The notes beneath the pieces are model-generated. The model worked only from the letters and a program-made list of their open reading frames with translations, did not search any database and was not told the DNA's origin. A program made the position numbers and the translations under genes. From a virus: a stretch of DNA of 64,000 nucleotides. Positions within the stretch are counted from its first letter, which is position 1, and each line of letters opens with the position of its first letter. Shown here one piece after another: positions 10,927 through 63,919 of this stretch. The stretch spans positions 1-64,000 of the IMG/VR virus record IMGVR_UViG_3300044712_002668. One strand, written 5' to 3'.

Positions 10927-13900
10927 TCTTCCCTCCAACAGCACAACCTCAAATTGATGAGATACTTGATAAATACAAGGCTTTATCAATTTCATATGAG
11001 GAATGCAAAAAGCAATTAATAGAGCTTGGACGTTCTCTTAAGTTGCCAGAGGCTTTGCTGGAACATGAAGTGAAGCTTTTGATTCAAAACGATAGTCAAA
11101 ATAATTTCCCACCAGAAGCCACTAAGGCAGTTAATGATATTTTAGAGTGGTATAAGAAAGATCCAATGAATAAAGCGAAAGCTATTAGCGCTTTATATCA
11201 TTTAGCAGCCGAATATAATGTACCTAATGTTAATTATATAGTACATCGTATTATTAAAGAGTTTGAAGCTGAAAACTCTCTTGTACCACAATTGCCAGCT
11301 ATACCAGGAAGAGAGTCATTTGTTGGGGTGGAAAATGAATTTGATAGTACCATAATAGATTTATGGCAAGGTATTGAAACACCAGAAACAGCCTTTATAA
11401 TATTAGACCGTTTATTAATTCATAATCCACAATATACTAAAAATGAAAAAGCAAGAGAAAAGGTTATAAATCCGATAATTGAGTATGTTGAAGGAATGCG
11501 TGGGCACACAGCATTTACACCAGAAACAGAAAGTACTTTTTCTGAGCAAATTCCAACAGAGATAAATAGTGATTTATTGAGCCCTGAAGTTCAGGCTACC
11601 AAGAAATTCCGTGCCCACCAGATTGGTCTTGAAAGATATGACTCAGAAACACTGAAACACATTGAAAATGTGTTTGATTTATTGAGAAGCTCTACTATCT
11701 CAAAGGAAGAAGCTTTTAATAAATTGTTCTTGGTTATTAAGAAATTCTTATCTACAAAGAAGAATTATACGGAGATTCCTGGCGAATTGGATGCTTGGTC
11801 AGAACAGCATACAAGAGCTCTACTTAATGCTGAGTATAATAGGATTCAGCAACAAAAAAAGAAAGAGATGGCTGATAATAGGCTTAAAGAGTGTTCTCCA
11901 AGACATATTCTTGGAGCGCCAATTAATTTTTCAGACCCAGCAGTAGCTAATAAAGTAAGGAGATTATATCATCTGTTTACTAATGGTAAATTACCATGGA
12001 AAACATATCGTGCTGAGTTATTAAAAATTGGTATTGATGGTGATACACTTCCTGAAGAGAATGATATTCAAAATGCTGTAGAAGAGTTGATAACTCGTGT
12101 ATATAGTTTCAGTATAACATGGAGTGATTTTACCAGGAACATGATATTGCTTGGCAAAAATCGTAAAGATATACTTGAAATTGCAGAGAATCTGTTCAAG
12201 GACAATCAAATTACCGAGCATCAATTAACAGAGAGAACTTTGTTTGTTCTTTTGGCTTTGAAAGGATATGAACAAGGAGCCTGGAAAGCTTTTGAAAATT
12301 TCATGAAGGCAAAGGATCTTCCAGATGGAGATGAAAATAAACAGACAATACAACGGTTTGAGAGTAAGCTTGAAACAATGGGTCTCAACAAAAACGAGAT
12401 TGAAATGTTTATCAAGCTATCAGGTGTAACAACTTTTTATGAGTTGGTTCCAAAACTTACAGGTAATAATATCCTTGTAAGAATAGAAATTGATAGAAAA
12501 CTAACCGGTGAACCTGAATGGTCAAGGGTAATTATAAACGGTGCAAGAGAGTCTTTACCCCTAAAGAGCAAGACACTTAAAACTGGTATTTACAACATTG
12601 TTTTTGATGTTTGTGGTTATAAACAATTATCTCAAATTTTCAATCTTGATTTGCCAGAGTCTATGCCAGCGGAGTCTCCAAAGAAAGAACACTGCGTTGA
12701 TATTTGGGTTGCCAATCCATTATTTCCTGAGAAATGGTTGTTTTTCAAATCTGTACCACTTGAGGTGGATGCTAGCCAAGCAAAAATTGTACGTAGATTT
12801 GTAAAGCAAATTGAAAGTGTAACTGACACGGTTGAAGCTAGAACCAATCTATTAGTCAAATACAGTGCAATTGAGTTTTTGAAAACTCTGGATATTGCAG
12901 AGGAAGCAAAAGCTCTTGGATCTGATTATGGAAAGCTAACGCCAGAGGTATTATCTGGTATTTTAGGTTGCTTCAAACAAGCCAGGGATACAACTCATCC
13001 AGGTGATAAGCCTGGTGTTCAATGGGATTTGACCAATGAAGATCATGTAAATGACCTCATTGCTAAAGCCAATAATTTATGGAATGATCGCTTTTTGAGC
13101 GCAAATGTAGGCGAAAATCTTAATAAGATGATTTCCTTGGATACTTTCAAGGTTATATTCTCCTTGTTCAATAAAATAACGTCAACTGTAGATCCTCCAG
13201 AGGGAGATACATGGAATGTTGAAGACAAGGAACAAGCTGGTACTTTAGCGTCCAAGATAAAAGAAAGCATAGATCAAACTTATACAACTCGTAAGATTTA
13301 TAGCCTTGATAAGACTGTTATTACAAGTATTATTACAAGAATATATAATGATATAATGCATAACACAATGCCATTGGATATGGCATTGCCAGAATCTACT
13401 GAGAGTGTTGAACAGGATCTTTCAAAATTCTGGGATTTATCAAACCCTGATCATGTTGCATATCTTACAGAGAAAGCCAAGCAAAAATGGGATGATTTGA
13501 TAACACAGATAATATCAGCTCCAGCAATAAAGGATCCTGAGAATCCAGATATCAAAACAAGAAATGATTTATATCTTGAATTTATGTTATATGGTTTTCC
13601 TAAGTTGAAAGAACAGATGGAAAATGAGAAGAAAGAAGAACAAGTTGTGGTAGAACCCGCAACACCTTCTGCACCAGCAAAGGCTAGAAGATTAACAAAA
13701 GAGGAAAAAGCAGCTAAAGAAGCATCTCAAAAGAGAAATATTGATATTATCAAACAAATGACTGAAAGAAGCTTTGTTGCCAGAAGTATGTTTGGTAATT
13801 TCTCAAGAGAGCAACGTGAAAAAGAATGGAACAAAATTTGGCAAGAGATGTGTGCCGAAAGTCGTGATTGGATTCTTTTATCAGCGGTTGAGGAAAAGGG

Positions 13901-32264: not shown

Positions 32265-32423
32265 ATGTTAATAAAAACAGGTGATGCACAGATAATTGGT
32301 GTTGTGAAAGAAGCCAATAATGATGCGTTGGAAGACAAAGAAAGGGAAAAGATTTTAAAGCAAGCCCTGGAACAGGCTAAAAATTCACCAAGACCAATTA
32401 AAAAAACGAGTTCGGAGATCTAA
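32265..32423 (+). CDS. small protein, 52 aa, N-terminus similar to the next gene
   Basis: A short frame from ATG at 32265 to TAA at 32423, with GGAGATCC just upstream. The product begins MLIKTGDAQIIGVV and has a charged, helical, lysine-rich end. The next gene begins MLIKLGESQIRSGD, and the ribosome binding regions are also alike (GGAGATCCTATGTTAAT versus GGAGATCTAATGTTAAT). This points to a local duplication of the gene start. The stop overlaps the next ATG. Function unknown. Confidence 0.5.
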   Translation: MLIKTGDAQIIGVVKEANNDALEDKEREKILKQALEQAKNSPRPIKKTSSEI

Positions 32424-35400
32424 TGTTAATAAAACTGGGAGAATCACAAATTCGTTCTGGAGATATACAATCTATTGAAAAAATATCAAATGATATAGAT
32501 TTGGATATTGAAAACAGAATGACTAAGTTTGCAAAACAATTAAAAGTTATAGCACCTCAGGCCAAAGATTTCTTATATTTTACCTGTGTTATGATGCACG
32601 CTGCCGAGGCTTCATTATTAAATGATGACGGTTCCTTGAAGAAGCATGCAGATGGAAGTCCGGTAAGAGCACAATGGGAAAAGGTTGGGGATCATGGAAT
32701 AAAATGGATATGTTCTGATAGGAATGTAAAACCATATAAAAATAATAATAATGATATTTTCCCTGAGAAGGAACTAAAGGTAGCTTACAAGAAATGGGTT
32801 GGACGTCCATTATGCCTCGATCATCAATCACAATCAGTTGATAAGATTCGAGGCGTTATTGTAGATACAGTTTGGGATGAGAAAAGAAAAAGAGTTATTG
32901 CACTATGTGCTTTGGATAAAAAGAATTATCCAGATCTTGCGCATAAAGTTGCATCAGGAGTAGCAACCAATGTTTCAATGGGTACTGCCGTAGGTCGTGC
33001 AGTATGTACTGAAGATGGTTGTCATCGTGTAGCGAAGACAGAACGTGATTTTTGTCAGCACATGAGAAATAAAAGCTGTTATGGTGAGATTAATCTTGAT
33101 TTATCTCCTATAGAGCTTTCATTAGTTGTTAGCGGTGCAGATCCAAAAGCCAAGGTAAAACATATTATTGCCAAGGATTTGGGGAAAGCAGCCGAAACAC
33201 TCACTGATTACCTTGGAATGAAAGAAGGTGATGGTGATATTACGAAAGACGATTTAAAGGAAGTTCAGAAAGATCTTGAACAATTGACCAAAAAAATCAG
33301 TAAGTTGACTGGCGAATTGGACGAGATAACGGAAGAAACCGATATACACGATGCGAGCGCTTATCCAGCTACTCGCTCAACATATGAGGTATCTGATGTT
33401 GAGACATCGGGAGTTAATTTAAGAGCGCCGGAGCAAATTCCATTATATGCTTCGGACTTACAAAAGGCAATAATGGGAGCGCAAGAAAAGATTGCGCAGC
33501 TTCAGGAGAATTATAACAGACTTTCTTCTTTGTTAAAGAGCGAGGAATCAATGACTAGAAAAAATGCATATTTTCAAGGAACAGTTGAGCCAAAACCAGG
33601 CGAGACAATGTATACACCAGATCCCTTGGCAGACAAGGCAAGGCTCATGGATAAGCATCTTCATGGTCCTGGCGATTTCCCAGACGTAGGTAATGTCGAG
33701 GGAATGTATCCAGGTATTACTCAGGATGACGAGGAGCTTAAAAAGAAGCTCCAACGTTTGGCAGAGGAGGAAGAGCGCGCGTTATTCCGTGAGGCTGCGC
33801 TAAAGAAAGCCAAGGAAAACCTGCTAAAGCGTCAAGCTGAATTAAAGAGCGAAGCTTATTGGCAGGGCACCACTGAGCCAAAACCTGGCCAGACCACATA
33901 TAAGCCAGATCCATTGAACAATGAAGCTCGTGAAGATGACAAACATCTTCAGGGTCAGAAACCATTCCCAGATGTGGGTAATGTTGATGGATTGTATGGC
34001 GATGACATGAAGACCAAAGAGAAACTTTCTCGTGCTTCATTGAATGCTAAATTCCGTAAGGCAGCCGGTTCTGATGGTCGTTTGGATAAGGCCGCATCTC
34101 GTTGGGAGGTCTATGCCAATGATACCCTTATTTTGACAGCTTCCGTTGATCAAATTACCAAGGGTAATGCTGACGTATTGTTTGAATCCGTTGCTACAAA
34201 GAGATTTGGAAAGAGTCTTTTGGACAGGATTCAATCAGAAGGTTTCGAGGCTACTCGTGCAGCTCTTCTAAAGACTGCCGGCGCCCCTCCAGCACCTCCA
34301 GCAATGCCTGAAATGCCTCCAGCAGCTCCTCCAGCAGGCGCTCCTCCAGCCCCTCCAGTTGGTGCTGAAGAGCCTCCACAGGCTCCAGAAAAGGGTGGGG
34401 ATCGTGTAAAGGAGATTATAAACGATCTTCGTGATCTTCTTGATGAGATTGATAATAAGATCAGCGATCTTGAAGAGCATTGTCTTGGACCAGTTGAAGA
34501 GGACGCCACTCATGTAGAGAATGTGGAACCAGCTCCAGAGCATGATTTCGCAGGTGAGGCTCCAAAGACAGCGTCTCAGTTACAGAGAATGCGTAAGACT
34601 GTAAATGGTATGTTGCGTGATGGAATCCATGAGATGATGTCAGATCTCAGTGCTCATGCAAAGGAAATCAAGACAGCAAGTGAGTTATATAAGCGCAGCT
34701 ATGATACAATGACTCCAGAGCAGCGCAAGTATTTGAATGCATTGGCAGCAGACGCCGTTACTGATGCAAAGTCTGCATTAAGAGAGTCTGTTCGTTTGAT
34801 GGGCGCAGTAGTAAAGTATGCTCATGGAACAGCAGAATTGGAGAAACGCGCTATGAAATCAGAAAAAGAAGAAGAGGATTGTAATGCAGCTGAGGATCCA
34901 ATGGGCGATCCAATGGGTGAGCTAACTGAGCTGACTCCAGAGACTTTGGGTGAGATTGGTGGTGAGGAAGAGATTCCTGGCCCAGAAGAGACAGAAGAAG
35001 CTGGTGTACCAACAGATGTAACAGAGAGTATTGAACAGGCTTTGGAGGAAGAGGCTGGTGATTTGCCAGAAGAGGAAGAGGAAGAGCTTGAGGAAGAGGA
35101 TGTTGGTAATGCTCCAGGTGATATTGTAAATCAGAATGGAAAAACAACAGTTGAATTGAATCCTCAAAATATGAAATTCCCAGGACCTGTACAAGCTTCT
35201 CTTAACACCAAGGAATCACGCGCACAAGCTCGTATGAAATTGGCAGAGAAGGCAGTTGAACTCGGTTTCAACGATCTTTCTGGCAAGGCCCATCCAAAGG
35301 GCAGCGTAGACGCTCCAAATGTTGAGACAAAGCCAAGTGTTGATGCCAAGTTCCATGTTCCACAAGATCTCAAGTCTTTGATGTTGGATCTTGCAAACCT

Positions 35401-35938
35401 TCCTCCAAAGGTTCGCAAGCAGGCTGAAGAGATTCACAATCTTGTAACCGCAGGACAGCTCGATCCAACAGACGTTGATGGATTGGTTGCTCATGGGGTA
35501 GATCCAGCGGCTGTAAAGTACTGGAAGGAAATGTGGGGTGCTGCTGGAGACTCTGAGTCAAAGGAATTTGCTACCAAGATGGTTGCAGAGCATCAGGCAT
35601 TCAAGGCAGCCGAGGACATGACATCTCATAAGGCTCGTATCAAGCAGGCTTATGAGTTAGCTTATGACATGGAAAGAAAGGGTATGATTGATCATGGACA
35701 GATTGATGATCAGGTCAATGAGATCATGAACTGGAATGAGGCTGGTTTCAACAGCGTCAAGAACATGATTGGACGTAAGCCTGTCGTAAAGCAAGCTTCT
35801 ATTCCAAATGTTGGCTTGTTACACTCCGGAGATGTAATACTTCCATCTGCACAGTTTGCAGGTGTTGAGTCCGTATCTTCTAATGGATCCGAAATCAAGA
35901 ACTACTTCGAGAGTTATTTTGCAAACAAGAGACTGTAA
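32423..35938 (+). CDS. prohead protease fused to a long scaffold-like region
   Basis: A 1171-residue protein. Residues 1-255 resemble a prohead maturation protease: RPLCLDHQSQSVDKIRG with H134, then GVATNVSMGTAVG with S186, and DLSPIELSLVVSGADPKAKV, a segment typical of these serine proteases. An inserted cysteine set (C195, C200, C211, H213, C219) may bind zinc. After residue 255 come coiled coils, two 48-residue repeats, alanine/proline linkers (about 615-650) and very acidic stretches, as expected for a scaffold. Such fusions would place the protease inside the procapsid, where it cuts scaffold and capsid proteins before DNA entry. The catalytic third residue is not identified with confidence. 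It ends at a strong terminator. Confidence 0.7.
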   Translation: MLIKLGESQIRSGDIQSIEKISNDIDLDIENRMTKFAKQLKVIAPQAKDFLYFTCVMMHAAEASLLNDDGSLKKHADGSPVRAQWEKVGDHGIKWICSDRNVKPYKNNNNDIFPEKELKVAYKKWVGRPLCLDHQSQSVDKIRGVIVDTVWDEKRKRVIALCALDKKNYPDLAHKVASGVATNVSMGTAVGRAVCTEDGCHRVAKTERDFCQHMRNKSCYGEINLDLSPIELSLVVSGADPKAKVKHIIAKDLGKAAETLTDYLGMKEGDGDITKDDLKEVQKDLEQLTKKISKLTGELDEITEETDIHDASAYPATRSTYEVSDVETSGVNLRAPEQIPLYASDLQKAIMGAQEKIAQLQENYNRLSSLLKSEESMTRKNAYFQGTVEPKPGETMYTPDPLADKARLMDKHLHGPGDFPDVGNVEGMYPGITQDDEELKKKLQRLAEEEERALFREAALKKAKENLLKRQAELKSEAYWQGTTEPKPGQTTYKPDPLNNEAREDDKHLQGQKPFPDVGNVDGLYGDDMKTKEKLSRASLNAKFRKAAGSDGRLDKAASRWEVYANDTLILTASVDQITKGNADVLFESVATKRFGKSLLDRIQSEGFEATRAALLKTAGAPPAPPAMPEMPPAAPPAGAPPAPPVGAEEPPQAPEKGGDRVKEIINDLRDLLDEIDNKISDLEEHCLGPVEEDATHVENVEPAPEHDFAGEAPKTASQLQRMRKTVNGMLRDGIHEMMSDLSAHAKEIKTASELYKRSYDTMTPEQRKYLNALAADAVTDAKSALRESVRLMGAVVKYAHGTAELEKRAMKSEKEEEDCNAAEDPMGDPMGELTELTPETLGEIGGEEEIPGPEETEEAGVPTDVTESIEQALEEEAGDLPEEEEEELEEEDVGNAPGDIVNQNGKTTVELNPQNMKFPGPVQASLNTKESRAQARMKLAEKAVELGFNDLSGKAHPKGSVDAPNVETKPSVDAKFHVPQDLKSLMLDLANLPPKVRKQAEEIHNLVTAGQLDPTDVDGLVAHGVDPAAVKYWKEMWGAAGDSESKEFATKMVAEHQAFKAAEDMTSHKARIKQAYELAYDMERKGMIDHGQIDDQVNEIMNWNEAGFNSVKNMIGRKPVVKQASIPNVGLLHSGDVILPSAQFAGVESVSSNGSEIKNYFESYFANKRL
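33566..33709 (+). repeat. 48-residue repeat, unit 1
   Basis: Residues 382-429 of the protease-scaffold. Begins AYFQGTVEPKPG and ends FPDVGNVEGMY. Aligns with unit 2 without gaps, with 32 of 48 residues identical by eye. Confidence 0.85.
33854..33997 (+). repeat. 48-residue repeat, unit 2
   Basis: Residues 478-525 of the protease-scaffold. Begins AYWQGTTEPKPG and ends FPDVGNVDGLY. It starts 96 residues after unit 1; the part between them is a charged coiled coil. Confidence 0.85.
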
Positions 35939-46822: not shown

Positions 46823-46877
46823 GATCCACTAAAGCTGCTGATGGATTTTGGTAGCTTATTTACAGGAGGTTCTTAAT

Positions 46878-47888
46878 ATGAGTTTATTTAGTACACAAGG
46901 CGAAATGAACGCCACTAGTTTGAAGGATGCTTTGCAGACACTTGTAAAGTATGCAGCGATTCTTGAGGAAGGTCAGCCAAGCAATATGCAGCTTGCTGGT
47001 CGTCCAAGTCTCGATGATGGAAAGCGTGATGAGCTTATTGCTCGCGCTATCATGACCCAGGAGGGCAAACTTGCTCTTGCCCAGGCCATGGCGAACCCAA
47101 TTCGCCGCAACTTGGACTACCAAGGTATTGCACGTCGTCTCTTGGTTGTTGACCCTCTTCCACAGGGTGTCAACCCAACCTATGAGCGTGATATTGACGT
47201 AGCCGCTACCGTTATTTCAAGCAACGGTACCGGTGGTGAGAGCCGTGTATTCGGTGATCGTATCACCGTTCCAACATTCGAGCTTTACTCCAACCCAACC
47301 GTTCGTATCTCCGAGGTTCGTCGTCGTAGATTCAACGTCATTGACCGTGCTGTTCAAAAGGCACGTCAGGAGCTTATGGCCCAGGAAGATGCAAACATCT
47401 TCGCAGCCATTGACTCTGCGGCTACAGTAGAGAACGTTGCACAGGATATTGCTGACAGCGGCTTGCTCAAGCGTGACCTTGTTGAAATCAAGGCCCAGAT
47501 TGATCGCTGGGACTTGGTAACAACCAAGTTCTTCATGAACATCAACGAGTTTACTGACATCTTGAACTGGGCATCCGGTGGTGGCCAGGGTCCAGGTGGT
47601 GGTGAAGTTGATCCAGTTACACAGCGTGAAATTCTCCAGACCGGCCTCTATGCCCACATCTGGGGCGCTGACATCATGGTTTCCAAGATTGTTCCACCAG
47701 GAACCGTTTACGGAGCCGCAGACCCAGAGTTCGTTGGTGTTATGCCAATCCGTCAGGACATTGAAGTTCTCCCAGCCGACGAGCCAAAGCAATTGAAGCT
47801 CGGATGGGTTGTTTCTGAGGAGATCGGTATCGGTATCGTCAACCCACGTGGTGTTGCCGTTTCTCGTAAGTCAACTCTCCCAGGATAA
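46878..47888 (+). CDS. major capsid protein
   Basis: The ATG at 46878 is chosen because CAGGAGGTTCTTA, an excellent ribosome binding site, precedes it; a longer in-frame reading from 46848 would lose this site. The 336-residue product has the pattern of HK97-fold capsid proteins: IRRNLDYQGIARRLLVVDPL, an E-loop-like region with glycines (SSNGTGGESRVFGD), a long helix RAVQKARQELMAQEDANIF, and a C-terminal beta segment with GWVVSEEIGIGIVNPRGVAV. Codons end in C far more often than in neighbouring genes, consistent with high expression. Two tandem terminators follow. A cleaved N-terminal peptide is possible. Confidence 0.86.
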   Translation: MSLFSTQGEMNATSLKDALQTLVKYAAILEEGQPSNMQLAGRPSLDDGKRDELIARAIMTQEGKLALAQAMANPIRRNLDYQGIARRLLVVDPLPQGVNPTYERDIDVAATVISSNGTGGESRVFGDRITVPTFELYSNPTVRISEVRRRRFNVIDRAVQKARQELMAQEDANIFAAIDSAATVENVAQDIADSGLLKRDLVEIKAQIDRWDLVTTKFFMNINEFTDILNWASGGGQGPGGGEVDPVTQREILQTGLYAHIWGADIMVSKIVPPGTVYGAADPEFVGVMPIRQDIEVLPADEPKQLKLGWVVSEEIGIGIVNPRGVAVSRKSTLPG

Positions 47889-53960: not shown

Positions 53961-56900
53961 ATGAGTGGAACATCACCAGCTGTAACTTTATTTAATTCAG
54001 AAGGAACCGAGTTAGCCGTTAAAAGTGGAGATACGATATCTTTAAATTCTCCAGCGTTAATTTTAGCTGGAAAAACCACTGATGGATATGCTTATCCTGT
54101 TTCTGTGGATGGGTATGGACGGCAAGTTATTGTTAGCGATCCTTCTAGTCCATTAGCTATTAGTGGAAACATTACTGCAACAAACCCTTCGGTTGGTACT
54201 AACGATGCAACCGCTCCAACCAGCTCTACACAAATTGCTGGCGTAAATATTGATGGTTATTTAACTGCTGTACAAGTAAGTCGTGAAGGCCACGTAGCAA
54301 TAGCTGGAAATACTTTACAAGGGTATGCTGGTGAGGTTGTTGGTTGGACTACTACTACACACCAATCATTGACAGTTGATGGTATTGGAGCTTTATATAC
54401 TCGTGGTCAGGTGATGACCGATGAAGGATCTTTTACTGATGATTTCCAGGGTTCAGGATTTACTACTAACTTAACTGGTACATTGGAGTTTACCAATGGT
54501 TCAGATCAGGTTGTTGGTACTGGAACTCTATTTTTGACAGAGTTGGATTATTATACTGTCATTAAAAAAAGCACTGATGCTGATACATTGTTTATACAGG
54601 TTTCATCTGTTGAGGATGATACACATTTAACTTTACTTACTCCATATCAAGGAACATCTCAGTCTGGACAGACTGGTGTTAAATCAAAATGGATTACAGC
54701 AGTTGGTACTGGCGGATCAATTTCTGTTGGTAGTTCACTTGTAACAATTGCTGCTGGTACAACCAGCGGTTCTATCACTGGATTCTGGACTGTTCCCGAT
54801 TACATCCCGTTCTTGGGAGCGTTAAAGGTTTCTGTAGATAATAGGCGTTCAAATCAGAATATCTACATTGGATGGTTTGACGTAGCTCAGAATGCTCAAC
54901 CAAACCTTTTGGCAGCATTTTTATTGGATGGAACAACCAATACAGCGGCAAAATGTGTATCTGGTACGTCTACTGCTGCTGCAGATACTCAAACAACAAG
55001 CATTACAATACCAAACGGCGCTAACAGTACAGCATCAAACATATATCGTGTAGCTCCTTGGCAAGGCCAGGTTGCATTTTATATCAATGATTCTCTAGTT
55101 GCAGTAAATACACAACATATTGTTCCACCATATGCTGATATAAGGTTTGGTGTATATGTTGTAAATACCGGAATTCCTGCAGGCGCTACCAGCATTGTTA
55201 CTGATTCGGCAATTTACGAAAGCATTGACAGATTTGATGTTCGTTGCTATAATACGAACGCTGATTTGTTACAGGTTACAGCTAATGGTCGTACCACCAC
55301 AGGTGTTCCTGTTCCCCTTCAGGTTAGCTCTGCTGGTATTGCAGTAGTATCTGGTGCTGTGACGCTATCTGGTACCGCAAATACTATACGTGGCAACGTT
55401 ACACAATATACTGCTGATGGTACGGCTGCTGCTGCTAACTCACTACCAGTGATTGCGCAGATGCTCGCAAAGAAGGAAGGTGCCAATACTCTTGACCGTT
55501 TAGTAGCTGGTCCAACCAATGCTGATGGTGAGGCTGTAGAAACTGTAGGCGCTCTTGTAACCAAATCCAGACTTTATGGGTTCAATGGTACAACGTGGGA
55601 TCGTTTAGACAGTTCTACTGCTAATGGTCTTATAGTTGATGTTAGTCGTGTTCAGGGAACTGTAACAGTTGGCGGTATCAACGCCAATGGTGGTGGTATA
55701 ACCGGAAACCCGGTTCGTATTGGAGGCTCATCTGGAGCTGCTACTTATGATATCAAGTGTGATACCAGCGGTAACCTTTATATGCAAGGCATGGGTACTG
55801 CTGGAGCTGCCTCTGGTGGAGTGCTTACCATTCAGGGCGATCCCAGTGGTACTCCAATACCTATCAGCGGATCAATTACTGCTACAAATCCGTCAGTTTC
55901 TATTGTAAACACAACACCTCCTGGTTCAGCCACTTATATTGGTGCCAAAGCCAATACAAACGCTCCAACAATGACTGATGGGTATATAGCTCCGTTGTCA
56001 TTGACAACTGGTGGAAGGTTGAGAGTTGAATCTCAATTCTTGAACGTTGTTGATTCTGGAAACTCTACTACAACTCCTCTTGGTGCGGGTGCTACATTTA
56101 CTGGAACAGCGGTAGATTTATTATCATATGCTAGCATTACATATTCTGTATTTACAGACCAGGATAGTGCTGCAAATGGAGTTGTATGTCAGTTCAGTCC
56201 TGATAATGTAAACTGGGATGACCGTATAACTAATAGTAAAACTGCAGACGGAACAGTTAGCGATTTTTCGGCTCGTCCACATGATAGGTATTTCAGAATC
56301 AAGTATACCAACGGAGCTACACCTCAAACTACATTCCGTTTTTATACTATCTTGAAGCGTATCATGCCGGCTGGTGATACTACAGGAGTTGATCATCCAC
56401 CACATTCTGGTGATGATGCTCTTCTGGTAAAAGCTGTCATGTCTGGTAAATCCACTGGTGGTGGCGGTTCATATGTTGACGTGAAAGTGAATCCATCTGG
56501 GACAATCCAGATTGGAGGTGGAGATACGCCTGCCGAAGGTCATGCAAACCCAACAGACGCGCAGCTTTCAACGGCGTTTAATATGGGCTGGAACGGTACG
56601 ACATGGGACCGTATTCAAACTCACGGAAATGATGTTGATGCTGATACCGTTGAAAGCACAGGATCACTAGCTGTTTGCTCACACAATATGGTTTTCAATG
56701 GTACAACATGGGATCGTATACGTGGAACTATTGCAAACGGACAGCTCGTTGATGTCTCTAGGGTGCAGGGAAATGTCACGGTTACTCAAGCAACAGCTTC
56801 TAATTTGAATGCTGCTGTTGTTGGTACTGGTGTGGCTGGTACACCTGCGGGTGGAGTTCTTACTGTCCAAGGATCTCCAACTGGAACTCCAATACCAATT

Positions 56901-58688
56901 TCCGGCAGCATTACAGCAACAAACCCGAGCGTTGGAAGCATCGGTGCTTCAGTACCAACAAGCGGCACTTTTATAGCTGGCACAGACGGATCTTTGCTTA
57001 GGGGTATTCAGTCTGTACAAGTACAAACAGCTCCAAATGGCAGCGATTATGCATTAGTTACAAAGAATGCTTATCAATCAACTATAGGAGCCTCAGTACC
57101 GAGTTATGCTGCTTTCATGTCTGGTACTGACGGGTCACTTGCTCGTGCAGTATATTTGGCCACTGCTGGAACGGCCGTTTCTGGTTCAGAGTATGCAGTG
57201 CTTGTAAGAAATGGTTTTCAAGCACAAACAGGACAGAGCCCGCCGTCTTATGCAGCATTAATAGGTGGTAGTGATGGCTCTCTAACAAGGGTGTTAAGAA
57301 CCGCAGCTGATGGAACATTAAGAGTTGATCCAACTGGCACAACCACACAACCTGTTTCTGGAACAGTTACAGCTGCACAAGCTACCGCTGCCAACCTGAA
57401 TGCAACTGTGGTTCAAGGCAATGCGGGAACAGCAGCTCAAGGTTGGTTTGCAAGAATTACTGATGGAACCAATACTGCTGCTGTGAAAGGCGCATCAACT
57501 GCTGCAATAGCTACAGATCCTGCTTTGGTAGTTGCAATATCTCCTAATAATTCGTTAACAATTTCTGGTAATATCACTCCAGCAGATGCATTTGCTAATC
57601 CAACAACAGCACAAACCGGCTGGAGTTTGCAGGCAGTGTTCAATGGTACTACTTGGGATAGAGCAAGAGGAACAGCGGCTCTTGGAACCTATGTTTCTGG
57701 CCCGGTAGCATCTGGAAATACAGTGCCTGCAAACCCTGTGTTTGTTGGTGGTTCTGATGGTACAAACGTCAGAGCTATAAGAACTGATACTTCTGGTTAT
57801 GCAGCGGTAAGAGTTACGGATCAAACTAACTTTATGCCAACGATGGACGCGGCAGCGCGTCGTGGTTATGTACAAATAACAGATGGCACCAATAGCATGC
57901 CAACTGCTGATACAGTAGCAAGAAGCAGTTTCCATAGAATTACTGATGGAACCAATACCGCTGCTGTAAAAGCAGCTTCAACAGCGGCAATTGCAACAGA
58001 CCCAGCTTTGGTAGTTGCAATATCACCGAATAATCCTCTCACAATTGGTGGTAGTTCAACACCATCAGATGGATACGCCAACCCAAGCACAGCGTCACAA
58101 TCCCAAGCTTTCAATATGGTATATAATGGCACCACTTGGGATAGACAGCGTGGTACTACCGCATTGGGTACTTATGTATCAGGGCCTGTAGCCTCTGGTA
58201 ATGCGGTTCCAGCAAACCCAATATTTATTGGTGGTTCTGATGGTACAAATATCAGAGCTGTAAAGACTGATGGGTATGGAGATGTATTTACAAGACTTAG
58301 TGACGGTGTCAGCAACGTTGCTATAAAAGCGGCGTCAACAGCAGCGGTTGCCACAGATCCGGCGTTGGTAGTTGCAATATCTCCGAATAATTCTCTAACT
58401 GTAAAAGAACCAAGACCTGGGACTGCATCACAAGCTAACGTAGCATTGAGCGCTACTAGCGTTACATTGTTGTCATCAAATTCAAATAGACTAAGATATT
58501 CAGTGATAAACGATACAAATAGACAGGCTTACGTATCGCATAGCGGGGCCGCAAGTACAACAAACTTTAAATATACACTTCAACCTGGTGAATATTATGA
58601 GGATCCCTTCCCATGTTTCACTGGAGCCGTAACCATTATATGGTCAGCTTCTGGAAGCGGATCGGCTAGAGTTTGTGAGGAGACATAA
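53961..58688 (+). CDS. giant repeat-containing fibre-like protein, 1575 aa (long paralogue)
   Basis: The ATG follows AGGATTTTC. It begins TSPAVTLFNSEGTELAV and ends near GSGSARVCEET, matching the ends of the 415-residue neighbour. In between are many added beta-rich modules. Five NGTTWDR motifs lie at 55581, 56589, 56694, 57639 and 58122. The block STAAIATDPALVVAISPNN appears three times in slightly varied form, and GTPIPISGSITAT twice. A non-repeat domain at about residues 145-440 (around VDNRRSNQNIYIGWFDV) resembles a jelly-roll or carbohydrate-type fold. It is most likely a long tail fibre. Its terminal cap could attach the chain to the virion. Confidence 0.62.
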   Translation: MSGTSPAVTLFNSEGTELAVKSGDTISLNSPALILAGKTTDGYAYPVSVDGYGRQVIVSDPSSPLAISGNITATNPSVGTNDATAPTSSTQIAGVNIDGYLTAVQVSREGHVAIAGNTLQGYAGEVVGWTTTTHQSLTVDGIGALYTRGQVMTDEGSFTDDFQGSGFTTNLTGTLEFTNGSDQVVGTGTLFLTELDYYTVIKKSTDADTLFIQVSSVEDDTHLTLLTPYQGTSQSGQTGVKSKWITAVGTGGSISVGSSLVTIAAGTTSGSITGFWTVPDYIPFLGALKVSVDNRRSNQNIYIGWFDVAQNAQPNLLAAFLLDGTTNTAAKCVSGTSTAAADTQTTSITIPNGANSTASNIYRVAPWQGQVAFYINDSLVAVNTQHIVPPYADIRFGVYVVNTGIPAGATSIVTDSAIYESIDRFDVRCYNTNADLLQVTANGRTTTGVPVPLQVSSAGIAVVSGAVTLSGTANTIRGNVTQYTADGTAAAANSLPVIAQMLAKKEGANTLDRLVAGPTNADGEAVETVGALVTKSRLYGFNGTTWDRLDSSTANGLIVDVSRVQGTVTVGGINANGGGITGNPVRIGGSSGAATYDIKCDTSGNLYMQGMGTAGAASGGVLTIQGDPSGTPIPISGSITATNPSVSIVNTTPPGSATYIGAKANTNAPTMTDGYIAPLSLTTGGRLRVESQFLNVVDSGNSTTTPLGAGATFTGTAVDLLSYASITYSVFTDQDSAANGVVCQFSPDNVNWDDRITNSKTADGTVSDFSARPHDRYFRIKYTNGATPQTTFRFYTILKRIMPAGDTTGVDHPPHSGDDALLVKAVMSGKSTGGGGSYVDVKVNPSGTIQIGGGDTPAEGHANPTDAQLSTAFNMGWNGTTWDRIQTHGNDVDADTVESTGSLAVCSHNMVFNGTTWDRIRGTIANGQLVDVSRVQGNVTVTQATASNLNAAVVGTGVAGTPAGGVLTVQGSPTGTPIPISGSITATNPSVGSIGASVPTSGTFIAGTDGSLLRGIQSVQVQTAPNGSDYALVTKNAYQSTIGASVPSYAAFMSGTDGSLARAVYLATAGTAVSGSEYAVLVRNGFQAQTGQSPPSYAALIGGSDGSLTRVLRTAADGTLRVDPTGTTTQPVSGTVTAAQATAANLNATVVQGNAGTAAQGWFARITDGTNTAAVKGASTAAIATDPALVVAISPNNSLTISGNITPADAFANPTTAQTGWSLQAVFNGTTWDRARGTAALGTYVSGPVASGNTVPANPVFVGGSDGTNVRAIRTDTSGYAAVRVTDQTNFMPTMDAAARRGYVQITDGTNSMPTADTVARSSFHRITDGTNTAAVKAASTAAIATDPALVVAISPNNPLTIGGSSTPSDGYANPSTASQSQAFNMVYNGTTWDRQRGTTALGTYVSGPVASGNAVPANPIFIGGSDGTNIRAVKTDGYGDVFTRLSDGVSNVAIKAASTAAVATDPALVVAISPNNSLTVKEPRPGTASQANVALSATSVTLLSSNSNRLRYSVINDTNRQAYVSHSGAASTTNFKYTLQPGEYYEDPFPCFTGAVTIIWSASGSGSARVCEET
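55581..58148 (+). repeat. NGTTWDR repeat array in the long fibre-like gene
   Basis: Five full copies, at 55581, 56589, 56694, 57639 and 58122, plus degenerate ones. Near-identical DNA stretches around the ALVVAISPNN blocks could recombine and change repeat number. Confidence 0.8.
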
Positions 58689-60574
58689 TGCCTATTTATT
58701 CGCAACCTACAGCAAAGAGTGTAGCAACAATTAGTAAAGAGCCTAGTGGATGGGCTGATAGAACAACAGCTACTCTTAGCAGAGTTGATGGTACGCTTAC
58801 ATTCAGCGTCACACCTGTTAGCGGATCTTTTACAATTTATATCAAAGGCGTACCTTTCACTTATACCTCTGCACAATCTATAACCTGGACAGATACAGAG
58901 GGTACTTGGTATTTTTATTTTGATATCAACGGCACTCTTACATCAACACAAGATTCGAATGCGTGGGTTACGGCTTTACTTGGCGATGGTGTATTGGTAG
59001 CATCATTATATTGGGATGCTACAAACAATATAAGCATGATGTTCTCAGAAGAGCGTCATGGTTTTATGCAAGGTGATATTCATCTTGAGATGCATAATGC
59101 ATTTGGTACGCAATGGGTATCTGGTGGTGTACTTTCTCCTACTACTGTTGCTGGTACTGGTGCAAATGCTTCTGATGCTCAACTTGGTGTCAGTACAGTT
59201 ACCATCTACGATGAAGATATCAGGATGACATGGTCTAATGGATCTCCGCAGACCATGAATAACCCTGCTGCTATACCTGTATATTACAAATTAGGCGCTA
59301 ATGGTTATTGGAGAAAGAAAACCGCTGATAGCTGGCCATTTATTTATTCTGGAACAGCAGGATATACAGGAGCGCAGGGACGTATTCCGTATAATCAAAA
59401 TAATGCTGGAACTTGGTCATTGACACAAATAGCGCAAAGCAGCTATGTTTTGATACATATTTACGCTACAAATGATATTATTGAACCTATTATAGCTATA
59501 CATGGTCAAACAGAATATGCAACATTAAATTCAGCTCAGTCTGGAATTACAACTGAATTATTGAGTATTTCTGCCATTGTAAAAGGATTGAATTTTGAAG
59601 TAACTCCACTTGGATCTTTGATAGTGCAATCAAACAGTGGTTATGGAAACACTCCAAAAGCCAGATTTCAACCTGCTACAGCAGCAGGCGCTTCATATAT
59701 AGATTTTCGTGGCAATACTTTTAGAGGTGGTACCAGCTCTGGTGTTACTGCTCACAGCCAGCTAACTGGTCTTGCTAATGATGATCATACAATATATGCG
59801 TTATTGGCTGGTAGGGCTGGTGGTCAAACTTTAATTGGTGGTACTGCTGCTAGTGAAAACTTAACACTTCAATCAACTGCAAACGCTACTCGCGGATATA
59901 TAACCATACCAGATCCATTAACAATAGGATCAAATCCAGATTTCTCTATAATACCAATTTCAAGTAGTCAAGTTGCAATTACATCTCGTAGAGATTTACA
60001 ATTAGTTGGAAATAGACAGGCTGGAGTTAGCTATACACCATCAGTTATAGGTGGAGATGGTTACTATTCAGTTATTATACCATCATCTTCTAACTCCACA
60101 TTAGCTACGGTAGGAATAAGAGCCACTGTAGGTCAAACAATTCCAATGTTAAGATTTGAAGATGGTTATGGAACCAGTGTTGGAACAATAGATTCTAGCG
60201 GAAATATAGCGTTAGTAAACAAGAATGTTAGCGGTGTAAAAACAGCAACATTTAATACACACCAAGCTATTACAGCTTCAACATCAGCAACAACTATAGA
60301 TTTTTCATCATATCAATCGGCAACTGTAACTTTGGTTGGAAGCCAGGCAACAGCATTTACTTTAACATCACCTGCTGGTCCAACAGCATGCAGATTGATT
60401 GTAATACAACCAGCATCAAATATGGTAACACCAACATGGACTACAAAACCATATGCTCCAAGCGGAGCTTTAACAATAGCCACAACAGCCAGTGCAAGAA
60501 CGCTGATTGGTTTGGTATATGATGGAAGCGTTTGGTATGCAGTATCATCTCAACCTATGACACAGTTAGCGTAA
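58688..60574 (+). CDS. tail fibre-type protein, 628 aa
   Basis: The ATG overlaps the previous stop (TAATG). A beta-rich protein whose middle contains SQLTGLANDDHTIYALLAGR and GGTAASENLTLQSTANA, a pattern common in phage tail fibres and collars where a shaft meets a head domain. Later sections (RFEDGYGTSVGTIDSSGNI) look like a further shaft segment, and the end (TLVGSQATAFTLTSPAGPTA) is a globular C-terminal beta domain. A fibre or receptor-binding role is likely. The host receptor cannot be read from sequence. Confidence 0.66.
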   Translation: MPIYSQPTAKSVATISKEPSGWADRTTATLSRVDGTLTFSVTPVSGSFTIYIKGVPFTYTSAQSITWTDTEGTWYFYFDINGTLTSTQDSNAWVTALLGDGVLVASLYWDATNNISMMFSEERHGFMQGDIHLEMHNAFGTQWVSGGVLSPTTVAGTGANASDAQLGVSTVTIYDEDIRMTWSNGSPQTMNNPAAIPVYYKLGANGYWRKKTADSWPFIYSGTAGYTGAQGRIPYNQNNAGTWSLTQIAQSSYVLIHIYATNDIIEPIIAIHGQTEYATLNSAQSGITTELLSISAIVKGLNFEVTPLGSLIVQSNSGYGNTPKARFQPATAAGASYIDFRGNTFRGGTSSGVTAHSQLTGLANDDHTIYALLAGRAGGQTLIGGTAASENLTLQSTANATRGYITIPDPLTIGSNPDFSIIPISSSQVAITSRRDLQLVGNRQAGVSYTPSVIGGDGYYSVIIPSSSNSTLATVGIRATVGQTIPMLRFEDGYGTSVGTIDSSGNIALVNKNVSGVKTATFNTHQAITASTSATTIDFSSYQSATVTLVGSQATAFTLTSPAGPTACRLIVIQPASNMVTPTWTTKPYAPSGALTIATTASARTLIGLVYDGSVWYAVSSQPMTQLA

Positions 60575-60583
60575 AGAGGAATT

Positions 60584-61192
60584 ATGACAACAACTACAAC
60601 TACATTACTTTATCCTTTTAGTGATTTTCCAAATAAAAGCTGTAATCCAGATATTTTAATAAGAGAATTACAAGATGCTTCGGTTTCTGGTGCGGCTGTT
60701 ACTCTTATTGGAAACAATGCACAAATCTCTTTCAACCAATTATTGACAAGCTCTCAAATAGTTTTATGTGATGGGGTTGTATCGGTTCATCAAGGATCTG
60801 TTTTCCAACCACAAATGCAGGGTTGGTTTATACAAGAAGATGGATATACAACAAATTCAGAATGGGTAAATTGTTTTACATTTGATACTGGTGCTCTGCC
60901 TGAATCTTGGTATCAGATTATGTGGTCATGTGAAACTTCTGCAGATGGTGGTGGAATTGCAGAATTCAGGTCACTTATCAATGGTGTAAACTATGTCACT
61001 CCAATGATTGAAGTAAGTTATGATAGCTGGGATAGAAGTACATGGGGCAGTTTAAGTGGTGGTATGTGGGTATACAGGCGTGCTGGTGAAAATGTAGTTA
61101 TTAATTTTGAACACAAAACAAATACAGGAATAGCAAACATTAGAAGAAGAAGATTTTCATTAATCAACGTTGGTAGAAACGTAAATTCATAA
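60584..61192 (+). CDS. putative adsorption-apparatus protein, 202 aa (tandem paralogue 1)
   Basis: AAGAGGAAT precedes the ATG. A beta-rich protein starting MTTTTTTLLYPFSDFPNKSC. It contains a CNP-x-x-L-x-REL-x-DAS block and a later SWYQIMWSCETSADGGG segment. It is clearly related to the next protein: TTLLYPFSDF/TTLSYDIEDI, then RELQDAS/RELEDAS. Likely a fibre tip or chaperone-like adsorption protein; no recognised family. Confidence 0.55.
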   Translation: MTTTTTTLLYPFSDFPNKSCNPDILIRELQDASVSGAAVTLIGNNAQISFNQLLTSSQIVLCDGVVSVHQGSVFQPQMQGWFIQEDGYTTNSEWVNCFTFDTGALPESWYQIMWSCETSADGGGIAEFRSLINGVNYVTPMIEVSYDSWDRSTWGSLSGGMWVYRRAGENVVINFEHKTNTGIANIRRRRFSLINVGRNVNS

Positions 61193-61199
61193 GGATAAT

Positions 61200-61778
61200 A
61201 TGGCAACTATTACAACTCTTTCATATGATATAGAAGATATTGCTGGTAAAGGGTGCAATCTTCCTGTTTTGCATCGTGAATTAGAAGATGCATCCCTTAA
61301 TCCTGCTGGTGTTAGAAGAGATGGTAACACTATATATGTTGATTTTCAAGATTTGGTTACTCTAGATCAGAAAGCTACATGTGATACTGTTGTTTTAGCC
61401 CATCAGGCTTTAAATTTTTCTCCAACTGTAAACGCTTATAATGATCCAGAAGAACATTCAATACAGCTTGGTGACTGGGTAACGGTAGGAACATTTAATT
61501 CTGGACCATTACCAGAAGGCGTATATATTTTAACATGGTCAGCAGAAGCAAAAATTGATACTGAAGGGTTAGGAAATCGTATAGGGTTAGAGGTATCAAT
61601 GAACGGTTATGAGTGTAGCCGTGATACTTTAGCAGTTCCAGATTGGGCTAAATACCAAGATGGAGAATGGGTTCCAATCAAAGCTGGTCAAAGTTTTATT
61701 CTTGAAATGAAAGCTAAAACAATTGGATGTGCTGGCTCTGTTAGAAGAATACGAGCAGGATTATTAAAGGCAATGTAA
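61200..61778 (+). CDS. putative adsorption-apparatus protein, 192 aa (tandem paralogue 2)
   Basis: AAGGATAAT lies before the ATG. It shares its order of segments with the preceding protein: a TTLSYDIEDI start, NLPVLHRELEDASL, a CDTVVLAHQA strand, LPEGVYILTWSAEAK and a final arginine-rich IRRIRAGL-like end. The two genes look like a tandem duplication. The function is not recognised. Confidence 0.55.
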   Translation: MATITTLSYDIEDIAGKGCNLPVLHRELEDASLNPAGVRRDGNTIYVDFQDLVTLDQKATCDTVVLAHQALNFSPTVNAYNDPEEHSIQLGDWVTVGTFNSGPLPEGVYILTWSAEAKIDTEGLGNRIGLEVSMNGYECSRDTLAVPDWAKYQDGEWVPIKAGQSFILEMKAKTIGCAGSVRRIRAGLLKAM

Positions 61779-61798: not shown

Positions 61799-62506
61799 AT
61801 GTCAATATCATTAGGTAATGCTGCGTCTTTAGGTGGATACCCATTAAATAACATGGATGTTAGCCATGTTTTACAATCTGGTTCCAACCGTATGGTTGTG
61901 GCGTTTTTTGCATTACACGGTGCTACATCTTATACTATAAGCACCGCTACGTACAATAGCACTAATATGACCCAGTTGGGTTTTGGAATTTGTCCAGCTT
62001 TATATAGTCGTTCAATTGCTATTTATTGTTACTATATATTAGAAGCATCTCTACCTGCAGCAGGAACGTATACATGTAGGTTCAAATCAAACGCAGGTTA
62101 TGCTGGTGGCGTGGCTGTTTACAGCATGTCCAATGTAGCCCAATCTGCTCCTAATACATTGGCCACTGCTGGTAACTCTCGTAACCCAGACCTTACAGGT
62201 CGTTATACTTTAGCTGATGGTACCAAAACATTTGGATGGACGCCTGGAGGTAGCTATTCACACTATGAACAGGTTGCTACATATATAAGTGAAGTTAGCG
62301 GAGGTGATGGGGATATATTATACCTTGATTCTACAGCTACCGAAATCAATAGTACCAATACACCTGATACACAAACACCAGCACAAACAGATACATATGG
62401 CACAATTAATATGACAGGTAGTACCTATCAATGGGGATCTCGTATTCTAGTAGCTGGAACTGGTGCGGTTGTTGATAACGCAGCAATAATGGGAGCTACT
62501 TTCTAA
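61799..62506 (+). CDS. hypothetical beta-rich protein, 235 aa, end of fibre cluster
   Basis: GTAGGTAAGTG lies before the ATG. Serine, threonine, glycine and tyrosine-rich, with strands such as MVVAFFALHGATSYTIS and a C-terminal GTGAVVDNAAIMGATF. Resembles the fibre proteins in composition. It might be a small accessory fibre or tip protein. No family recognised. Confidence 0.52.
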   Translation: MSISLGNAASLGGYPLNNMDVSHVLQSGSNRMVVAFFALHGATSYTISTATYNSTNMTQLGFGICPALYSRSIAIYCYYILEASLPAAGTYTCRFKSNAGYAGGVAVYSMSNVAQSAPNTLATAGNSRNPDLTGRYTLADGTKTFGWTPGGSYSHYEQVATYISEVSGGDGDILYLDSTATEINSTNTPDTQTPAQTDTYGTINMTGSTYQWGSRILVAGTGAVVDNAAIMGATF

Positions 62507-62524
62507 TAGTTTTGCATATGGTTG

Positions 62525-63919
62525 ATGAACATCTTTAGAGCCATATGTTTTTATGTGTTTTTCCTTGCCATAAATGGTCTATTTATATTCTTTGATTTCG
62601 TTGTTAAACAAAGAAAAACAGGTTCATTACGTGAGCGTCTGCAATATTTATTAGAATCTTCTTTAAAACATGAATTCTTTAAAGAAAGAATTGGTAGTTT
62701 TCTTGAAAAGAATAAAGATGTAAATGATGAAGAGTTTTTTAAGAACTGGAAAGAGTTACCAATCTTAACAAAACCAGATTATGTTTATATAAATATTGAA
62801 GGTAAATATCCTAAAATATCAAATAACTTCTTTGTGGCTTTGTATCAACTTTGGAGTGGAAGGTTTACATATCAACTTGCCACTGGTGGTTCTTCAAAGC
62901 TTCCCTTGACTGTAAGCATGGATAAACAACATGCATTTAAAATGGCTTTTTCATTTTTCCTTTGTTGGTATAAAATGGGATGGCGACCTGGCCAAAAAAT
63001 TCTTATATATTATCCTGATAAAATATATGATCTTGAAGTTTTCAAACATTATAGGGTTTTATTTGACTGGATTGGTGTAAGGTTCCATACGTTTTCAAAA
63101 ATAGATGTTGAAGATTTTATTAAACAACTAAACTCATATCAACCAAGTATATTGATAATTTTTCCATCTCCTTTAAATATACTTTCAAATAAAATTCATA
63201 AAAAGAATCTTGCTAGTTTTTGGCAGCCTAAATTTATCAATGTAAGTGGAGAGACATTATTCAAATGTCAAAGAGATAACATTCAGCGTATATTTTATAA
63301 ATCAAAACTAGATGATTCTTATGGTTCTGTAGAATTGGGAGAGATTGCTCATGAAAAATACCCAGGATTATTGGAAGTTTTTGATCATCATGTGTTTGTA
63401 GAGACCATTGATGCTGAAGATGGTAAAAAAGAAATGATTGCTACCGTCTTTGGAAACGGATACTTCCCATTCATTAGATATAAAATGGGCGATTTAATGA
63501 ATATTATTGAAAAAGATGGAAAGCAATATCTTTGCAATATTGATGGAAAAGCTAGTAACAAAATGAAACTTGGAAAAGAGATAATTTATCCTAGAGATCT
63601 TGATAAGTGTATTACAGAGATAAATAAAGTATTGAATCCAAAATATCCTGTTATTATAGATGCTCGCCTCATAAAAGATGAACACACTATAACCTTATCA
63701 ATTATTTTAAGTGGGAAAATACACAAACTATTATTAAATGTTGTAGAACATAAGGCACAGCAGGTGTTTAAAGAAAGGTTTGGAACCCGTCCTAATATAG
63801 ATTTTGTAGAAATTTTCAAGCATGATTATAGATTGAAGTACAGGGCATTGGTAGATAAAAAAGATGAGCACGAATGGGCGGGTGGGATTATAGGACAAGA
63901 GGATAAAATGAGGCTATAA
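62525..63919 (+). CDS. membrane-anchored adenylate-forming enzyme, PaaK/CapK-like
   Basis: ATG at 62525 is the preferred start; no clear ribosome binding site is seen. The first 26 residues contain a strongly hydrophobic helix (FYVFFLAINGLFIFFDFVV), a probable membrane anchor. The rest matches the phenylacetate-CoA ligase/CapK branch of AMP-forming enzymes: ATGGSSKLPL at the phosphate-binding loop position, VSGETLFK, a DDSYGSVELGEIAHE segment with the conserved YG-x-x-E, and the FIRYKMGDL motif. Such enzymes activate a carboxylate with ATP and then often transfer it to CoA or another acceptor. CapK relatives occur in surface polysaccharide gene clusters. In a phage beside fibre genes it is unexpected. 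The substrate is unknown. Confidence 0.75.
   Translation: MNIFRAICFYVFFLAINGLFIFFDFVVKQRKTGSLRERLQYLLESSLKHEFFKERIGSFLEKNKDVNDEEFFKNWKELPILTKPDYVYINIEGKYPKISNNFFVALYQLWSGRFTYQLATGGSSKLPLTVSMDKQHAFKMAFSFFLCWYKMGWRPGQKILIYYPDKIYDLEVFKHYRVLFDWIGVRFHTFSKIDVEDFIKQLNSYQPSILIIFPSPLNILSNKIHKKNLASFWQPKFINVSGETLFKCQRDNIQRIFYKSKLDDSYGSVELGEIAHEKYPGLLEVFDHHVFVETIDAEDGKKEMIATVFGNGYFPFIRYKMGDLMNIIEKDGKQYLCNIDGKASNKMKLGKEIIYPRDLDKCITEINKVLNPKYPVIIDARLIKDEHTITLSIILSGKIHKLLLNVVEHKAQQVFKERFGTRPNIDFVEIFKHDYRLKYRALVDKKDEHEWAGGIIGQEDKMRL

Follow-up and report, generated by a model that had tools for sequence, protein, structure and literature searches.

Enzymes of the ANL superfamily use ATP to convert a carboxylate into an acyl-AMP, after which the acyl group is transferred to a thiol, an amine or another acceptor. 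The phage protein analyzed here shares its fold, over about 440 aligned columns (Foldseek E value of about 1e-22), with the ligases PaaK1 and PaaK2 (PDB 2y27, 2y4n and 2y4o) and with the Bacteroides acyl-CoA ligase BT_0428 (4rvn and 4r1l). Core motifs are common to both sides, but identity is only 16 to 18%, and the phage protein differs by an extra hydrophobic N-terminal helix and by lysines in place of the P-loop glycine and of the arginine of the GR motif. Its closest cellular relatives are bacterial capsule/exopolysaccharide CapK-type ligases (Deinococcus AWT37685.1; genome contig L025; Methanohalobium WP_013195666.1), which belong to polysaccharide operons and have a less hydrophobic N terminus, whereas the phage copy sits in a probable fibre locus. 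Members of the same family also occur in viral glycan clusters (L023, L024 and L128 to L134), together with glycosyltransferases, epimerases and UDP-sugar dehydrogenases. In L128 and L130 to L134 an aminotransferase is fused to the ligase or follows it, while in this phage no PF00155 aminotransferase was found and the CapK-like gene stands apart from the glycan cluster.

The tools by which phages are known to change surfaces are mostly glycosyltransferases, acetyltransferases and depolymerases, and a search of the open-access literature turned up no description of a CapK-like ligase in a phage. Jumbo-phage capsule/LPS clusters, with their large sugar-biosynthesis sets, have been proposed to alter the surface of the host and to shut out rival phages (Iyer et al. 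2021, PMC7824862); unlike the phage described here, the clusters treated in that section of the article come without mention of an adenylate-forming ligase. What is new here is thus a divergent, apparently anchored, phage-borne PaaK/CapK member at an unusual genomic site.

An intact CapK-like gene in a jumbo phage

The window, a stretch of 64 kb, is the first part of a jumbo-phage record of 335,988 bases (336 kb). Three features identify this record as that of a tailed phage:

46848-47888, major head protein (match 8.5e-78)
32423-35938 of the record, head maturation protease domain
103331-106567 of the record, baseplate wedge gene

The CapK-like gene occupies positions 62525-63919 of the window on the plus strand and is an intact open reading frame of 464 amino acids, with an ATG at 62525 and a stop at 63919; an in-frame TTG at 62522 lies directly 5' of the ATG. 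Its GC content is 30.3%, versus 37.9% for the whole record. No Shine-Dalgarno-like site was found ahead of the gene, promoter-like sites near it were no commoner than in shuffled sequence, leaving no clear promoter, and none of the listed terminators lies 3' of it.

Family membership and fold

A profile built from cellular relatives only scored the protein at 164 bits (2e-48) over residues 36-445 and matched none of 200 shuffled copies. Curated models responded weakly: NCBIfam TIGR02304 (F390 synthetase-related) gave 1.3e-6 and 27.7 bits, against a cut-off of 251.9 bits; the PaaK equivalog TIGR02155 gave 2.5e-6 and 26.3 bits, against 646.3 bits; and Pfam PF14535 (AMP-binding_C_2) stayed below its gathering score of 25 (E=0.06, 14 bits). 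Neither Pfam AMP-binding PF00501 nor PHROGs matched the protein. With a 43-sequence alignment as guide, AlphaFold2 produced a two-domain ANL fold (pLDDT 82.4, pTM 0.79); run without the alignment, it gave no usable model (pLDDT 37). Foldseek searches with the guided model returned PaaK-family ligases as all of the best PDB matches, at full length and with E values of 5e-23 to 1e-16 (5e-23 to 1e-20 for the PaaK1/PaaK2 and BT_0428 structures). Global identity to relatives is about 15 to 25%, the best local match being 34% over 176 amino acids (L025), and in the tree the protein forms the longest branch (3.24 changes per site), with a weakly supported placement. Scans of viral and genome contigs with single-protein patterns gave no relatives, whereas alignment-guided scans did.

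Since the cellular-only profile and the fold of the model agree, despite the weak curated models, the protein is by profile and fold a very divergent PaaK/CapK-family AMP-forming enzyme, its adenylation activity itself being predicted. This bears out an earlier note on this DNA, which had placed the protein in the AMP-forming superfamily from its motifs; the profile match expected on that basis came from the cellular-only PaaK/CapK profile, while PF00501 gave none and the curated cut-offs were not reached.

Active-site residues and the N-terminal helix

The three motifs on which that assignment was based were all located in the translated frame. Together with the helix and the C-terminal lysine, they map as follows:

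62528..62614 (+), residues 2-30, N-terminal hydrophobic helix, probable membrane anchor, one helix in the AlphaFold2 model
62879..62908 (+), residues 119-128, P-loop-like motif ATGGSSKLPL
63311..63355 (+), residues 263-277, motif DDSYGSVELGEIAHE, with Y266 and E270 conserved
63470..63496 (+), residues 316-324, motif FIRYKMGDL, with R318, Y319 and D323 invariant
63836..63838 (+), K438, at the place of the superfamily's catalytic lysine (K in 82 of 83 homologues, one gap)

Conservation of residues was scored against 83 homologues. T307, P315, R318, Y319 and D323, invariant across this set, are retained in the phage protein, as are the near-invariant Y266, E270, E243, E293 and K438, so that both the YG-x-x-E motif (Y266, G267, E270) and the RY-x-x-GD motif (R318, Y319, G322, D323) are present. 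The P-loop (T/S-G/S-G-S/T-T/S-G-x-P) departs at one position: it reads TGGSSKLP, with K125 where 79 of the 83 homologues have glycine. The GR motif is also altered, G341 being kept while the arginine found in 83/83 homologues is replaced by K342. Core catalytic residues are thus retained in K438, YG-x-x-E and RY-x-x-GD, but not at P-loop position 125 or at position 342, both of which are lysine. Because these two lysines replace near-invariant residues, adenylate formation by the phage protein is plausible from the sequence, not assured.

The best 19-residue window of the N-terminal helix, FYVFFLAINGLFIFFDFVV, has a Kyte-Doolittle value of 2.2, an Eisenberg hydrophobicity of 0.85 and a low moment (0.21), and is followed by KQRK. 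Among 87 relatives, the N-terminal Kyte-Doolittle peak has a median of 0.44 and a maximum of 1.93, so that the phage protein exceeds all of them. Both this comparison and the model thus favor the membrane location that had been suggested from the hydrophobic N terminus, and the helix, as predicted, probably resembles a true membrane anchor. The positive-inside rule is established knowledge on membrane-protein topology, and by this rule the ligase domain would be predicted to face the cytoplasm.

Insertion in a variable receptor-binding locus

The CapK-like gene follows a run of genes on the same strand:

53961..58688 (+), repetitive probable fibre protein, 1575 aa, 68% identical to a sister-phage protein
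58688..60574 (+), probable tail-fibre/receptor-binding protein, residues 1-416 conserved, remainder divergent
60584..61192 (+), fibre-locus gene, paralogue (33% identity) of the next gene
61200..61778 (+), fibre-locus gene; its counterpart to the left of the empty site in sister contig L107 is 49% identical
61799..62506 (+), 235-aa gene, beta-rich and fibre-like by eye, also missing from the syntenic sister phage

It is separated from its flanking phage genes, on the same strand, by 18 bp and 25 bp. We take the neighbours to act as receptor-binding genes; the label "fibre" is an interpretation, because neither of the domain libraries (Pfam, PHROGs) names any of them.

A sister record of 218,772 bases (L105/L107) shows synteny over the segment running from about 50 kb to 69 kb, which includes a 104-aa gene (61% identity) and a cysteine-desulfurase-like gene (58%). 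The protein encoded at 58688-60574 is 83% identical to its L107 counterpart over residues 1-416 and has no match beyond. At the corresponding site in L107, the orthologues of the 61200 gene (12138-12767) and of the 63945 gene (12816-13133) are immediate neighbours, in that order, with neither the 235-aa gene nor the CapK-like gene between them; co-travel of the two missing genes was looked for and not shown. In the second relative, L106, synteny begins at the desulfurase-like gene. Searched with the family profile, neither sister record (G001 and G002) yielded a CapK-like gene, though both records may be incomplete.

Judged from this sequence comparison, the CapK-like gene is accessory, "moron"-like cargo in a variable receptor-binding locus. 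An accessory insertion is favored, and an assembly join unlikely, because the flank orthologues adjoin in L107, the gene is absent there and its GC content is deviant. We read the difference as a recent gain in this phage rather than a loss in both relatives. The survey of related phages thus yielded two syntenic relatives lacking the gene, with the flanks adjacent in one, and it agrees with the earlier note in placing the gene among receptor-contact proteins. That note had also considered bacterial DNA joined by assembly error, which we give almost no credence: low GC content and bacterial relatives would fit it, but phage genes stand on both flanks at 18 and 25 bp, their orthologues lie side by side in the sister phage, and 10 of 181 genes of the phage, several of them in its own glycan cluster, are even lower in GC. 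The presence/absence pattern suggests that the receptor-binding locus takes up enzyme cargo besides fibre tips.

Just past the CapK-like gene lies a cysteine-desulfurase (NifS/IscS)-like gene (record 64311-65408; L002 4311-5408), followed by HNH and cold-shock genes. Its match to NifS (2.4e-43) is below the cut-off, and it is 50 to 58% identical to genes in the two sister phages. A role as dedicated partner of the CapK-like gene was rejected, because both sister phages have it without a CapK-like gene.

Genomic company of cellular and viral relatives

Plasmid relatives whose surroundings were read lie in capsule/exopolysaccharide loci, and the closest genome relative, the Bacteroidetes-type L025, is flanked by a flippase-like gene on one side and a glycosyltransferase on the other. 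A limited query set detected glycosyltransferases within about 8 kb of 34 of the 80 cellular relatives, so that members of the family also occur outside polysaccharide loci.

The gene had been described as rare in phages, and indeed at most 8 of 50,697 annotated phage records matched close homologues, per query, and PHROGs held none; the matches that could be judged look bacterial. One of them, MT836375.1 ("Bacteriophage sp."; L005), was rejected as a case of phage carriage because it has the gene content of a bacterial capsule locus, with glycosyltransferases, a CapA-like gene and a UDP-sugar dehydrogenase. Acinetobacter "phage MD-2021a" records give paaK matches.

A search with the phage protein alone missed CapK-like genes known in other viral records, and a profile search was therefore used; matches of the family profile in those records hold by construction, since these members were built into it. 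Eleven further metagenomic viral contigs carry CapK-like genes, 9 of the 11 in sugar-gene surroundings. As L129 to L132 look like one lineage, these nine represent about six independent lineages.

L023, with NeuB and a UDP-sugar dehydrogenase
L024, with several glycosyltransferases; P-loop also altered
L128 and L130-L132, with GT11 fucosyltransferase-like genes, an epimerase and a UDP-glucose dehydrogenase
L133 and L134, with an epimerase and a dehydrogenase
L129, with an epimerase only (short contig)
L022, directly after collagen-like fibre genes
L021, among head-tail genes

The proteins of L128 and L130 to L132 join a CapK-like part and a class I/II aminotransferase in a single chain (identified by Pfam for L128, whose length and start the other three share). 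In L133 and L134, a gene resembling an aminotransferase comes after the CapK-like one. The ligase-aminotransferase pairs are:

L128 9395-11881 and the L130-L132 equivalents
L133 9419-11729
L134 328-2708

Ligase and aminotransferase could form a two-step module that makes, then activates, an amino acid. The recurrence of the ligase in independent viral glycan clusters, in some cases aminotransferase-fused, offers a testable prediction on its substrate.

The phage has a glycan cluster of its own at 117 to 140 kb (116991-140361; L006/L007/L008), outside the window and about 53 kb from the CapK-like gene. It combines glycosyltransferases with GDP-fucose genes: a GT11 gene (3.2e-26), a GT10-like gene below cut-off, a GDP-mannose dehydratase (1.7e-122) and a second epimerase consistent with a GDP-fucose synthase. 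GDP-mannose-dehydratase-family genes also occur in both sister jumbo-phage records. Searches of the phage for an acyl carrier protein, a FemX-type acyltransferase and a PF13440 (Wzx-type) flippase, as for the aminotransferase, found none; the acceptor step would thus rest on the host or on other phage genes.

Proposed function and alternatives

Taking family, genomic company and anchor together, our best guess is that an accessory gene supplies a membrane-held PaaK/CapK-type ligase that would decorate surface glycans at the host inner membrane, a reading to which we assign a probability of roughly 0.4. One N-terminal helix would hold the ligase at the cytoplasmic face of that membrane, where it would use ATP to activate a small carboxylic acid as its acyl-AMP. 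An amine or hydroxyl of a lipid-linked glycan, or of another envelope precursor, could then receive the acyl group, either directly or via CoA, and this transfer would alter the surface sugars of the infected cell and possibly also the binding of competing phages. The two guesses of the earlier note, a host-surface change that might block a second infection or activation of a small molecule for a polymer, would both fit the occurrence of viral CapK-like genes in glycan clusters. In favor of surface-glycan decoration are the fold, the profile match, the retained catalytic residues, the anchor helix, the insertion relative to L107 and the low GC content, as well as the relatives in capsule/exopolysaccharide loci and viral glycan clusters and the phage's own GDP-fucose cluster. 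Against it stand K125 and K342, the 53-kb distance from the glycan cluster, the acceptor-step genes not found, the lack of a nearby glycosyltransferase in more than half of the cellular relatives (limited query set) and the missing Shine-Dalgarno-like site and clear promoter.

The same chemistry might instead be directed at the virion, the enzyme acylating fibre proteins or their attached sugars and being kept in the fibre operon for that reason. The tight same-strand spacing between structural-type genes (18 bp after one, 25 bp before the other), the lack of a clear promoter of its own, the L022 copy adjoining collagen-like fibre genes, the L021 copy among head-tail genes and the failure to find a Wzx-type flippase would all suit this idea. 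We consider it unlikely, if not far behind the main reading, as a membrane anchor would be odd for an enzyme working on cytoplasmic virion proteins and the closely related fibre of the sister phages (83% over 416 amino acids) comes without the enzyme. It is likewise rather improbable that adenylation has been lost and that the gene encodes a degenerate or repurposed membrane protein with a binding or scaffold role: the frame of 464 codons is still open, the other catalytic positions, including K438, are retained, and the viral relative L024, whose P-loop is also altered, sits in an orderly glycan cluster, even though the longest branch in the tree, G125K and R342K, and the missing Shine-Dalgarno-like site point toward such decay. 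PaaK enzymes being the best fold matches, a metabolic CoA ligase (phenylacetate-CoA ligase-like) that aids host catabolism during infection was also weighed; with a PaaK equivalog score of 26 bits where 646 is required, and no paa-like catabolic genes in those neighbourhoods of viral homologues that were read, it appears very improbable.

Whether the target is the cell or the virus, the CapK-like gene probably helps to alter sugars on one of them. A carboxylate-activating ligase, if this is what the gene encodes, would give the phage a means of attaching acyl or amino-acid groups to surface sugars. More specifically, the anchored acyl-adenylate ligase of this jumbo phage might attach an acyl or aminoacyl group to host envelope glycans or to the phage's own fibres, and this non-glycosyl glycan modification might be exchanged through the receptor-binding locus; we regard this joint reading as possible, though doubtful.

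Other features of the record

Directly after the glycan cluster lies a tubulin/FtsZ-family gene (7e-17; record 140364-141704, L008 364-1704). An adenylosuccinate-synthetase-family gene (8e-56) is found on the minus strand at record 202775-204055 (L011), and IMPDH/GMP-reductase-like and ThyX-like genes were recognized by eye at 177990 and 179014; these three genes possibly form a PurZ-type base-modification set. Small paralogues starting with MK(T/I/V)R(N/T)GFVSNSS(S/A/T)SSF occur at record positions 326813, 328314, 329157 and 211472.
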